Origin: Akkermansia muciniphila
GTDB lineage: Bacteria > Verrucomicrobiota > Verrucomicrobiia > Verrucomicrobiales > Akkermansiaceae
DNA length: 64,000 nucleotides
NCBI RefSeq assembly: GCF_900184965.1
Contig: NZ_FXYA01000173.1
Coordinates: 1 to 64,000 of the forward strand
Direction: 5' to 3'
Shown here: in pieces, positions 29,642 to 33,098 of the stretch
How the letters are laid out: every line of letters begins with the position of its first letter
How positions within the stretch are numbered: position 1 is the first letter of the stretch
Translations under genes and position numbers: made by a program
Notes under the pieces: generated by a model
What the model was told of the DNA's origin: nothing
The model's database searches: none
Seen by the model: only the letters and a program-made list of their open reading frames with translations

Positions 29642-29671
29642 TTTTTCTTGCGGGATGTCTCTTTCTGTGGT

Positions 29672-29830
29672 TCATTGCGTTCCAGCGCAGGTAACGGAAG
29701 ACGGTGAAAATCCGTCGCGGACGCGCCGCTGTAACCGGTAGACGATGGACCGGACACTGGCTGCCCAGGCAGCCGGGAAGTCCCCATCACATGTCGCACC
29801 GGAAGCCAGAAGACGACCTGATGCTGCCGT
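29672..29830 (+). ncRNA. Cobalamin riboswitch
   Basis: Conserved core elements in order: GGTAACGGAAGACGGTGAAAA with TCCGTCGCGGACGCGCCGCTG (29690-29731), the GTAAC that follows, GGACACTGGCTGCC, CCGGGAAGTCC, and the closing GGAAGCCAGAAGACGACCTG (29801-29820). The ends are approximate; AGCGCAGG (29684-29691) and CCTGATGCT (29817-29825) could form the closing stem. It sits in the leader of nrdD, about 160 nt before the ATG. Such riboswitches normally switch genes off when adenosylcobalamin is present; control would make the oxygen-sensitive class III reductase B12-repressed. The expression-platform hairpin was not identified with confidence. Confidence 0.9.
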
Positions 29831-29990
29831 ATCCCCATCCCGCGGACAGGATGAACATACGCACAGGTCTCCAGCATGCCCCCTTTCCGGGAATGCGCGC
29901 ATGCAGCCGGCCCCTGCCTATGGTTTTTCCAGGCTTTTGCCCAGGCTCGCGGATGAGCGGTCACCACCCTTTCCAAGCGAGACATCCACC

Positions 29991-32087
29991 ATGGCAACAA
30001 GCATCATCAAACGTTCCGGGAAAAAGGAACAATACCAGGGCTATAAGATTGAAGAGGCCATTAGAAAAGCCTTCCACAGCTCCGGGACCGCCTACAACCG
30101 TTCCATCTATGAAGAGGTGGAAGCCAAGCTGAGCCATCAGGACAGCGCGCATGTGGAAGAGATTCAGGACATGATTGAACGCGCCCTGTTCCGCTCCGGA
30201 TATTTTGACACGGCCAAGGCCTTCATCACCTACCGTTTCCTGCACAAGATGCAGCGCGAACAGCTTGGCGGCCTTTATTCCGGCAATACCTACGTGGACT
30301 GCAAGCAGACGGTAGAGGAATATATCGGCCAAAGCGACTGGCGCATTGCCGCCAACTCCAATACCACGTATTCCAATGCGGGGCTCATCAACAACACGGC
30401 GGGCAAAGTGATCGCCAACTATTGGCTGGACCAGGTTTACTCCGTACGGGAAGGAGCCGCGCACCGGGAAGGGGATTACCACATCCATGACCTGGATTGC
30501 CTGACCGGATACTGCGCCGGATGGAGCCTCCGCAACCTGCTCAATGAAGGATTCAACGGCGTGCGCAGCCGCGTGAACAGCAGGCCGCCCCGCCACTTCC
30601 GGGAAGCCCTGGGCCAGATGGCGAACTTTCTGGGCATTCTGCAAAGCGAATGGGCCGGCGCTCAGGCCTTCAGCTCCTTTGACACCTTCCTGGCGCCCTA
30701 CGTTTTCAAGGACCAGACAGACTTTCCCCGCATCAAGAAAGACATCCGCAGTTTCGTCTATAACCTGAACGTGCCCTCACGCTGGGGACAGTCTCCCTTT
30801 ACCAACGTCACGATTGACTGGACTGTGCCGCGCGACCTGCGGGACCAGGCCCCCTTCAGCGGAGGGGAACACCTCTTTGAAGGAATAGAAGACGCGAACC
30901 TGCTCGCCCTGGCGAGGGAACGCGGCGCCAACAAGCTGACGGAGCTGACCTACAAGCATTTCCAAAAGGAAATGAACCTGATCAACAAGGCCTTTTACGA
31001 AGTTCTCACGGAAGGGGACAGCACCGGACAGCCCTTTACCTTCCCCATCCCCACCGTCAACATCACGGAAGACTTTGACTGGGAAGGGGAAAATGTGCCT
31101 CTCCTGTTTGAAAACGCCGCCAAAATCGGTTCCTCCTACTTCCAGAACTTCATCGGCAGCCAGTACACCGTCAATGAACACGGGGAACGCGTGCCTGACG
31201 AACGGGCCTACAAGCCGGATGCCGTGCGTTCCATGTGCTGCCGCCTCCAGCTGGACCTGCGGGAACTGCTTAAACGCGGCGGCGGCCTTTTCGGCTCCGC
31301 GGAAATGACCGGCTCCATCGGCGTGGTGACCATCAACCTGGCCCGGCTGGGCTACCTGTTCAAACAAAACCGGGAGGCCCTGTTCGCCAGGCTGGGAGAA
31401 CTGCTGGACCTGGCCAAATCCTGCCTGGAAAAGAAAAGGGCCTTCGTTCAGGAAATGTATGACCGCGGCCTGTATCCCTACACCAAACGCTACCTGCCCA
31501 CCTTCCGCAATCACTTCTCCACCATTGGCGTCAACGGCATGAACGAGCTGCTGCGCAATTTCTCCAACGACACGATGGACATCACCTCTGAAGAAGGCAG
31601 GGCCTTTGCTGAAGAGATTCTGGAATTCATCCGCTTGCGCATGCAGGAATACCAGGAAGAAACCGGCAACCTGTACAACCTGGAAGCCACGCCCGCGGAA
31701 GGCACCACGCACCGCTTCGCCCGCGAAGACCAGAAACGCTATCCCGACATCATCCAGGCCGGCCCCGTGGGGCAGCGTTATTACACGAACAGTTCCCAGC
31801 TTCCCGTGGACCACACGAGCGACCTGTTCCGGGCGCTCCAGCTTCAGGATGAACTTCAATGCTGCTACACGGGAGGAACCGTCTTCCACATGTACATGAA
31901 CGAAGCCATCAGCTCCCCGGAAGCCTGCCGGGACATTGTCCGCAAAGTGCTGACCCGTTTCCGCATGCCGTACCTCACCGTCACCCCCCTCTTCTCCGTT
32001 TGCGAGAAGCACGGCTACCTGCGCGGGGAGCACGAATACTGCCCCTTCTGCGATGAGGAGCTGCTTCATATCCACAGACATGAATAA
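29991..32087 (+). CDS. nrdD: Anaerobic (class III) ribonucleoside-triphosphate reductase body, without glycyl-radical tail
   Basis: Reduces ribonucleotides to deoxyribonucleotides in anaerobic DNA synthesis. 698 residues. An N-terminal ATP-cone (about 1-95: SIIKRSGKKEQYQGYKIEEAIRKAF cut at the usual place) for allosteric control is followed by the NrdD barrel (YHIHDLDCLTGYCAGWSLRNLL near 160, SPFTNVTIDW near 265, MCCRLQLDLREL near 415, GGLFGSAEMTGSIGVVTINL near 430). The C-terminus has the zinc-type segment VCEKHGYLRGEHEYCPFC and then stops. The RVxGY glycyl-radical motif that normally follows is absent here and occurs in the next ORF. ATG at 29991 is the first start after the riboswitch that fits the ATP-cone. 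Confidence 0.92.
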   Translation: MATSIIKRSGKKEQYQGYKIEEAIRKAFHSSGTAYNRSIYEEVEAKLSHQDSAHVEEIQDMIERALFRSGYFDTAKAFITYRFLHKMQREQLGGLYSGNTYVDCKQTVEEYIGQSDWRIAANSNTTYSNAGLINNTAGKVIANYWLDQVYSVREGAAHREGDYHIHDLDCLTGYCAGWSLRNLLNEGFNGVRSRVNSRPPRHFREALGQMANFLGILQSEWAGAQAFSSFDTFLAPYVFKDQTDFPRIKKDIRSFVYNLNVPSRWGQSPFTNVTIDWTVPRDLRDQAPFSGGEHLFEGIEDANLLALARERGANKLTELTYKHFQKEMNLINKAFYEVLTEGDSTGQPFTFPIPTVNITEDFDWEGENVPLLFENAAKIGSSYFQNFIGSQYTVNEHGERVPDERAYKPDAVRSMCCRLQLDLRELLKRGGGLFGSAEMTGSIGVVTINLARLGYLFKQNREALFARLGELLDLAKSCLEKKRAFVQEMYDRGLYPYTKRYLPTFRNHFSTIGVNGMNELLRNFSNDTMDITSEEGRAFAEEILEFIRLRMQEYQEETGNLYNLEATPAEGTTHRFAREDQKRYPDIIQAGPVGQRYYTNSSQLPVDHTSDLFRALQLQDELQCCYTGGTVFHMYMNEAISSPEACRDIVRKVLTRFRMPYLTVTPLFSVCEKHGYLRGEHEYCPFCDEELLHIHRHE

Positions 32088-32142
32088 AAATCCTCTTCCC
32101 CAATAGACGCCCGACTTTCAAAACCCAACCATCAATACGACA

Positions 32143-32337
32143 ATGACCAAACAGGAAATATTAAGCAAGTACGCACAGGACCGGACCCGCTGCACCGTTT
32201 ACACGCGCGTCATGGGCTATCACCGCCCTGTGGAAACTTTCAATGCCGGCAAACAGGGCGAGTTCCATGACCGCGTCCACTTCGTGGAACCGGGCCGCCC
32301 CTGCTCCTGTTCCGCCCAAACGGAACAGCCGCGATAA
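32143..32337 (+). CDS. Stand-alone glycyl-radical C-terminal domain of class III ribonucleotide reductase
   Basis: A 64-residue protein whose core (CTVYTRVMGYHRPVETFNAG, then KQGEFHDR) is the NrdD glycyl-radical tail: Gly25 in RVMGY is the predicted radical site and FNAGKQ the trailing signature. It lies 55 bp after the nrdD stop, with stops in between, so it is a separate cistron rather than a simple frameshift. NrdG follows 26 bp later. The likely role is to dock into the NrdD body and supply the radical, comparable in idea to the stand-alone glycyl-radical spare part of pyruvate formate-lyase. Short NRDD-type ORFs may exist in other genomes; I cannot check how common this is. Confidence 0.8.
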   Translation: MTKQEILSKYAQDRTRCTVYTRVMGYHRPVETFNAGKQGEFHDRVHFVEPGRPCSCSAQTEQPR

Positions 32338-32363
32338 TTCTCCCAACAACATATGCGAAGTCG

Positions 32364-33098
32364 ATGGGAACGGGTCGGGGCATAGCAGACATCACGCCGC
32401 TCACCTTGCTGGATTTTCCAAATAAGGTGGCTTGCATCTTCTGGCTGAGAGGCTGTAATTTGTTTTGTCAGTACTGTTACAACGTCTCTCTGGTCAGGGG
32501 AACGGATTCTCCCGCCGGAGACCGGACGGACTACCTTGATTTTCTCAGAGATCGGGTGGGATTTCTGGACGGAGTAGTCCTGTCCGGCGGCGAGTGTACG
32601 CTGTGTCCCGACCTCATCCCTATCTGCCGCAATATACGGCAGCTTGGCTTCGCAGTCAAAATAGACACTAACGGCACCCGGCCCGGCGTGGTGAAAACGC
32701 TGGTGGAAGAAGGGCTTTGCGACTATATTGCACTGGATTACAAAGCGCCGGAAAAACTGTTCGGCTCCATTACCGGGCGTCCGGACTTATTTCCCTTCTT
32801 CACTCAAACGCTGGATTATCTGATCAACAGAAATTTCCCGTTTGAGGTGCGGACGACAATCCACTCCGGCCTTCTCGGGGAAAAGGAAATCAACCAGATC
32901 AGCGGGGATCTGACGTCGCGCGGCTATAAAGGAACCTACTACCTCCAGAACTTTTTTAATACAGAGGAAACGCTCGGCCAAATCGGCGCTCCTGAACGGA
33001 TGATTGACTTATCCCTGCTAAATACGCACATCCCCATAGGGTTGCGCAACTTCCCCATCACGGAGAAAACGCCCGGCTCCAACTCTGGAAAACAATAG
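32364..33098 (+). CDS. nrdG: Class III ribonucleotide reductase activating radical-SAM protein
   Basis: Uses a [4Fe-4S] cluster and S-adenosylmethionine to make the glycyl radical on its partner. The 244-residue protein has the radical-SAM cluster Cys31-x3-Cys35-x2-Cys38 (CNLFCQYC), the GGE motif VVLSGGECTL near 75, and FAVKIDTNGT near 101. It belongs to the longer NrdG-type activases similar to those of split or bacterial-type NrdD systems. Third gene of the nrdD operon, so it should be co-regulated by the riboswitch and NrdR boxes. Its partner for activation is presumably the 64-residue glycyl-radical protein. Confidence 0.88.
   Translation: MGTGRGIADITPLTLLDFPNKVACIFWLRGCNLFCQYCYNVSLVRGTDSPAGDRTDYLDFLRDRVGFLDGVVLSGGECTLCPDLIPICRNIRQLGFAVKIDTNGTRPGVVKTLVEEGLCDYIALDYKAPEKLFGSITGRPDLFPFFTQTLDYLINRNFPFEVRTTIHSGLLGEKEINQISGDLTSRGYKGTYYLQNFFNTEETLGQIGAPERMIDLSLLNTHIPIGLRNFPITEKTPGSNSGKQ

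Follow-up and report, generated by a model that had tools for sequence, protein, structure and literature searches.

A separately encoded glycyl-radical domain in the class III ribonucleotide reductase of Akkermansia muciniphila, with counterparts in other cells and on viral contigs

The class III ribonucleotide reductases (NrdD) described from T4, Thermotoga maritima and Prevotella copri carry their glycyl-radical domain (GRD) as the C-terminus of the same chain. Here we analyse a stretch of 64,000 nucleotides from Akkermansia muciniphila (contig NZ_FXYA01000173.1, positions 1 to 64,000; hereafter the window), in which an nrdD locus shares with those enzymes the body fold and motifs, the ATP-cone, the MCCR finger loop, the zinc segment, the glycyl-radical motif and the NrdG partner, but has its GRD as a separate protein of 64 residues. 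We consider it highly probable that the two proteins make up a working two-subunit class III reductase, whose radical subunit is probably exchangeable and may also be brought in by phages.

Small proteins that bear a radical glycine of their own and serve a larger enzyme are likewise known as the autonomous glycyl radical cofactors of pyruvate formate-lyase, GrcA (YfiD) and T4 Y06I. In the accessible part of PMC12338860, GrcA is described as delivering the radical by taking a hydrogen from the catalytic cysteine of pyruvate formate-lyase, and the T4 protein is named in the reference list. The small protein of the window resembles GrcA in standing alone and in carrying a glycyl-radical motif. 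However, GrcA belongs to a different enzyme family and rescues an enzyme already equipped with a GRD, whereas the body in the window has none (its match to the Pfam family NRDD ends at position 536 of 562); moreover, NRDD, and not a pyruvate formate-lyase kind of domain, is the only Pfam family that the small protein matches.

A single reductase made from two adjacent genes, both of them needed, is likewise found in NrdJa/NrdJb of Pseudomonas aeruginosa (PMC4520616, accessible part), although this enzyme is of class II, depends on B12, and has a small part that passes electrons and not a radical. The same 2015 paper, in that part, calls the split class II NrdJ the sole split ribonucleotide reductase outside viruses. 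Phage nrdD genes, too, may lie in several coding pieces, broken by introns, inteins and homing endonucleases (PMC3653736, accessible part). There the breaks fall inside the phage's own reductase, whereas the present cut is located at or in the border of the GRD, and a body is missing from most of the viral contigs examined. In a literature search that covered few subscription journals, neither a split cellular class III enzyme nor a stand-alone NrdD radical domain of a phage was found described.

The split nrdD locus of the window

The locus runs in the order cobalamin riboswitch, nrdD body, small open reading frame (ORF), nrdG:

29651..29835, + strand: cobalamin riboswitch aptamer upstream of nrdD, a probable regulator outside the enzyme (Rfam RF00174, 75.2 bits against a gathering score of 31.5)
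29991..32087, + strand: nrdD body of 698 residues, with ATP-cone, barrel and zinc segment and without a glycyl-radical motif (PF13597, PF03477; NF006126, 1063 bits)
31233..31244, + strand: finger-loop motif MCCR, residues 415-418, the radical cysteines by homology (motif as in PMC9669993)
32001..32051, + strand: zinc segment CEKHGY...CPFC, residues 671-687 (ligand role suggested by the motif)
32143..32337, + strand: stand-alone glycyl-radical subunit of 64 residues, with Gly25 at 32215-32217 (PF13597 positions 532-562, 2.4e-8)
32364..33098, + strand: nrdG, an NrdG2-type activase of 244 residues (TIGR02495, above cut-off)

The first-pass annotation of this DNA had proposed that the NrdD body ends after its zinc segment without a radical motif, that the next cistron, of only 64 residues, carries the missing tail with Gly25, and that NrdG follows. 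The ORF reading and domain matches bear out each of these points, and its coordinates, lengths, motif and gap are all correct. The body ORF covers NRDD positions 2-536 (1e-159; 533 bits for the catalytic domain against a curated cut-off of 26.2) and has its ATP-cone (PF03477) at residues 4-86. The glycyl-radical motif is absent from this chain and sits on the small ORF, where Gly25 lies within RVMGYHRP, while all four presumed zinc ligands are on the body. The body ends with a TAA at 32085-32087, and the tail ORF begins 55 bases further on, in another frame. The ORF at 32364-33098 scores 173.6 bits with TIGR02495 (NrdG2), for which the cut-off is 131.15. MCCR is one of the two dominant class III finger-loop motifs, and models of class I and class II reductases matched the body only in its N-terminal ATP-cone region and far under their cut-offs, which speaks against a class II catalytic chain. 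Furthermore, a second full-length NrdD, which could have left this pair inactive, was not found: in the whole genome (2.86 Mb, 99.99% complete) there is no NRDD match besides the body and the tail. A sequence search of the PDB with the 64-residue tail gave no match.

The source genome encodes a B12-dependent NrdJ elsewhere. With a cobalamin riboswitch before nrdD and NrdJ in the genome, the B12-free enzyme is probably shut off when B12 is present. The riboswitch is found at 6 of the 15 genus loci tested.

Conservation in the genus and spread beyond it

An NRDD match was found in 74 of 76 Akkermansia genomes, and the split in all 73 genomes with a readable junction; G071, one of the genomes that lack an NRDD match, gave none for NrdJ either. 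All three frames occur as offsets between body and tail (22, 25 and 26 of the 73 genomes), which is a strong argument against programmed frameshifting or read-through. The first-pass annotation had held that the junction is no frameshift, and this is very probably so; sequencing error or frameshift was rejected as its origin on these same counts. Also rejected was an apparently continuous ORF in some genus genomes, as indicated by the open-frame column of the genome search, since body and tail are separated by a stop at every locus that was read.

In the genus, purifying selection acts strongly on both halves. The median dN/dS is 0.11 for the tail core (2009 pairs, with 268 saturated pairs dropped) and 0.07 for the last 150 codons of the body (1922 pairs, with 295 saturated pairs dropped). 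An NrdG-like ORF follows immediately 3' of the tail at 61 of 70 genus loci and at 34 of 41 loci of the phylum with enough sequence. In other genera of the family, the 7 listed genomes with NrdD all have an intact enzyme of a more distant type.

The split is wider than the first-pass annotation had supposed. It is seen in other Verrucomicrobiota and Lentisphaerae, Desulfuromonadales, Elusimicrobia, Margulisbacteria, Diapherotrites archaea and on proteobacterial plasmids. When the subfamily model NF006126 was run over 387 genomes of the phylum, 351 gave some match and 130 a match above the cut-off. The 90 Verrucomicrobiota loci read (L101-L190) comprise 43 split, 45 intact and 2 unclassed ones, figures from which no frequency is derivable, as 30 of the loci are tool-chosen best matches and 60 were hand-picked; L187 and L188 duplicate L091 and L092. 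A scan of GTDB contigs, covering the best 80 of 480 relatives, added the Lentisphaerae, Desulfuromonadales, Elusimicrobia, Margulisbacteria and Diapherotrites, with the Desulfuromonadales tails detected only when GF was allowed in the radical-motif pattern.

In the window's split, labelled type A, CPxC stays on the body. Most split loci among the 90 belong to a second type, B, in which CPxH and a later CP remain on the body and the tail starts with M[AS]KCG; the small protein would then supply the presumed fourth zinc ligand, and the zinc finger would be common to two chains. The type B tail begins at a conserved Met, and its start is preceded by a Shine-Dalgarno-like 4-mer in 39 of 40 loci (29% of shuffles) and by a longer match of this kind in 33 of 40 (6% of shuffles). 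Type C denotes the split of the Elusimicrobia, which has helices at both new ends. The micrarchaeal NrdD at L250 is intact and has extra residues between its third and fourth zinc ligands, at the type B split point. It should also be noted that intact NrdDs of the phylum (L101-L130) and the phage NrdD MT835493 (L200) often carry, beyond the GRD, a glutaredoxin-like domain that contains the motif TCPNC, as named by eye from the sequence.

Plasmid records with a match numbered 28, and 8 of their loci were read. Seven are type A splits (Sulfuricurvum, Aquabacterium, Azospira, Paracoccus, Cupriavidus necator, Cupriavidus metallidurans and Bradyrhizobium), and the Acidiphilium locus has an intact NrdD. 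Where NCBI annotation is given for both halves, each is named a reductase; hence the homology of the small ORF is already recognized by the NCBI pipeline. On pHG1 of C. necator H16 (L197:762-3135), residue 650 of the 676-residue body falls in the zinc segment, as the glycine of CPTHGY, and the RVMGY glycine is on a separate ORF of 66 residues. A 1999 paper on the C. necator enzyme reportedly assigned G650 as the radical glycine, and this radical site may need correction. In the laboratory strain C. necator H16, this reductase is reported to be indispensable if denitrification is to run to completion (PMC2864759, accessible part). For C. metallidurans, the same paper names the genes Rmet_5137 and Rmet_5139; the skipped locus number between them would be the tail gene.

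A tree of 111 NrdD bodies with the tail excluded shows at least 8 changes between split and intact forms, the tree being a quick maximum-likelihood one, unrooted and with some long branches. From these sequences, the split seems to have arisen several times. Our reading of the tree is of six splits (type A, Verrucomicrobiota type B, Desulfuromonadales, Diapherotrites, Margulisbacteria and Elusimicrobia) and two re-fusions (L194 and L132), of which that at L132 is doubtful because the locus has an internal stop and may not work.

Stand-alone glycyl-radical domains in viruses and cells

Three scans of IMG/VR gave 163 viral loci, including repeats of one contig, and these were compared with a body profile built from 45 NrdDs and the E. 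coli NrdD. A body is present at 9 loci (5 intact, 4 split); 84 have a GRD whose flanks, of at least 2.5 kb each, hold no body, and 70 are likewise without a body but lie near a contig end. When 50 viral contigs of 23-110 kb, picked for their length, were searched whole, 46 matched NRDD in its GRD part only. The other 4 also carry a body and are the same four that were scored as split. NrdG2 scores above cut-off on 3 of the 50, all among the four with a body, and three more contigs give weak matches below it. Viral GRDs occur in both split types, and 13 columns, with the radical motif, are invariant in an alignment (A2) that includes two viral tails. The median dN/dS of viral tails is 0.35 (646 pairs), a value that leans high because saturated pairs were dropped and to which we give no weight.

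Phage genes adjoin these domains in several cases. PHROGs matches to portal, terminase, head protease, integrase, virion, tail-fibre or replication genes were found on 8 of 9 contigs, with none on L390, and phage head and tail genes adjoin the GRD on two contigs examined. Two phage tails weakly match the NrdD family of PHROGs, 487. In one genus genome bin, the third NRDD match is a 51-residue GRD, preceded on its contig by terminase and portal genes and with an N-terminus like that of the genus's own tails.

Some viral loci have further features. On a 313-kb viral contig (L284:972-2287), the glycine motif of a stand-alone GRD gene is seemingly broken by a stretch that resembles an intron and contains an ORF of homing-endonuclease-like sequence. 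A viral NrdD body at L289 (G732) lies in several pieces within an open frame of 1273 residues, in an intein-like manner. A reverse transcriptase (phrog_1423) is found a few kb from a stand-alone GRD at L384:1833-2915, on a viral contig that also bears an integrase.

Extra GRDs were also found among 21 cellular genomes searched whole, most of which had been chosen for a GRD without a nearby body. In G783 (Lentisphaeria), an intact NrdD coexists with a split body and its tail, and other contigs hold four further GRDs, one of which contains an internal stop. Three extra GRDs each were found in G786 and G787, and two in G798. In G788 (Spirochaetota) and G789, the sole GRD is on a different contig from the body, next to chromosomal genes (UbiA and a radical SAM protein, release factor RF-1). 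The whole-genome search of G781 (Thermoguttaceae) gave GRDs and a fragment and no body. A phage terminase lies near the extra GRD of a Lentisphaerae contig (L227). The first-pass annotation had called the tail possibly exchangeable, and this gains support from the body-less viral GRDs, the genomes with multiple GRDs and the phage-linked GRD in the genus bin; exchange itself we infer.

Competing explanations and proposed mechanism

As judged from the genes, the pair is very likely a working two-subunit enzyme. A decaying locus, in which the split nrdD has lost or is losing its function and other reductases serve the cell, would agree with the NrdJ encoded elsewhere in the source genome and with the two genus genomes that have no NRDD match. 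We nevertheless regard decay as very improbable: both halves are under strong purifying selection, keep their catalytic motifs and are retained in every readable genome of the genus, and the same split is maintained in distant lineages. Hardly any credence can be given to the proposal that the two ORFs yield one protein, be it through programmed frameshifting, stop read-through or RNA splicing. Although body and tail share a frame in 22 of the 73 genomes, the offsets vary over all three frames, the type B tail has a conserved Met and a ribosome-binding site of its own, and five in-frame stop codons lie between the parts of an Elusimicrobium pair.

Unlikely, but a serious contender, is a functional split enzyme whose tail is fixed, tightly bound and never exchanged, with the body-less phage copies serving otherwise, for instance by blocking the host enzyme. 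The helices at both new ends of the elusimicrobial parts could lock them together. Such a fixed tail is at odds with the invariant columns and radical motif that the viral tails share in alignment A2, with the occurrence of viral copies in both split types, and with the extra GRDs of several cellular genomes, whose contigs differ from that of the body. The gene data support, as an inference, a radical subunit that is exchanged and supplied by phages.

In the two-subunit enzyme that we propose, the body (ATP-cone, barrel and MCCR finger loop) would hold the active site and no radical, and the 64-residue protein would be the obligatory radical subunit. By homology to NrdD, NrdG would abstract a hydrogen from Gly25 to give the glycyl radical. 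The tail loop presumably docks in the barrel beside the finger-loop cysteines, where the radical would cycle between glycine and cysteine, so that the tail would start each reduction cycle like the C-terminal GRD of an ordinary NrdD. As a separate chain, the GRD could be made, damaged and replaced independently of the body, and phages could supply their own copy to drive the body of the host. This scheme presumes that the tail docks, that NrdG activates it, that the pair is active and that the tail can be exchanged between proteins. By analogy, oxygen damage may have been the motive for the split. In the accessible part of PMC11226230, the GRD of P. copri NrdD is described as mobile, and as invisible under dATP inhibition; such mobility makes a detachable version plausible.

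The Elusimicrobium pair was folded as one chain, with the stop codons between the parts given residues. The fold is confident: the mean pLDDT is 84.4, and the tail (residues 731-798) reaches 83-94 except at its end. Its best structural match, to ATP-bound P. copri NrdD, spans model residues 96-789 with a Z of 35.4 and an rmsd of 2.7 over 561 residues.

Several points weigh against an exchangeable two-subunit enzyme. Because the alignment behind the fold holds intact homologues, the fold does not prove docking independently. The pair that was folded also belongs to a split type different from that of the window. Among 50,697 named phage records, two tail queries gave 3 and 2 matches, with no stand-alone copy in the records read (MT835493 and an Oceanotoga phage, both with an intact NrdD). 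The viral stand-alone GRDs therefore rest on uncultivated contigs, which may be fragments and whose host is known, by binning, in one case only. No Shine-Dalgarno motif precedes the tail start at any of 76 genus loci, although this says little, given that just 5 of 50 long ORFs in the window have one. Finally, two genus genomes, G061 and G071, are those without any NRDD match.

We also put forward, tentatively, a modular class III reductase in which the radical subunit would be mobile and interchangeable between cells and phages. A phage without a reductase might then take over the host's anaerobic supply of DNA precursors with a radical subunit of 40-70 residues. It could possibly escape dATP feedback as well, because dATP inhibition in P. 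copri NrdD goes with disorder of the GRD (PMC11226230, accessible part). If the two-subunit enzyme is real, it would add a new form to the class III reductases, one of the three cellular routes to DNA precursors, and the mixing of small proteins would offer a test of oxygen repair, of the exchange of subunits and of control by feedback in a glycyl-radical enzyme. The window tail also matches PHROGs family 4132, whose function is unknown (2.4e-9), as does a phage tail (1.4e-6), and the match of the window tail suggests a function for the small phage genes of this family.

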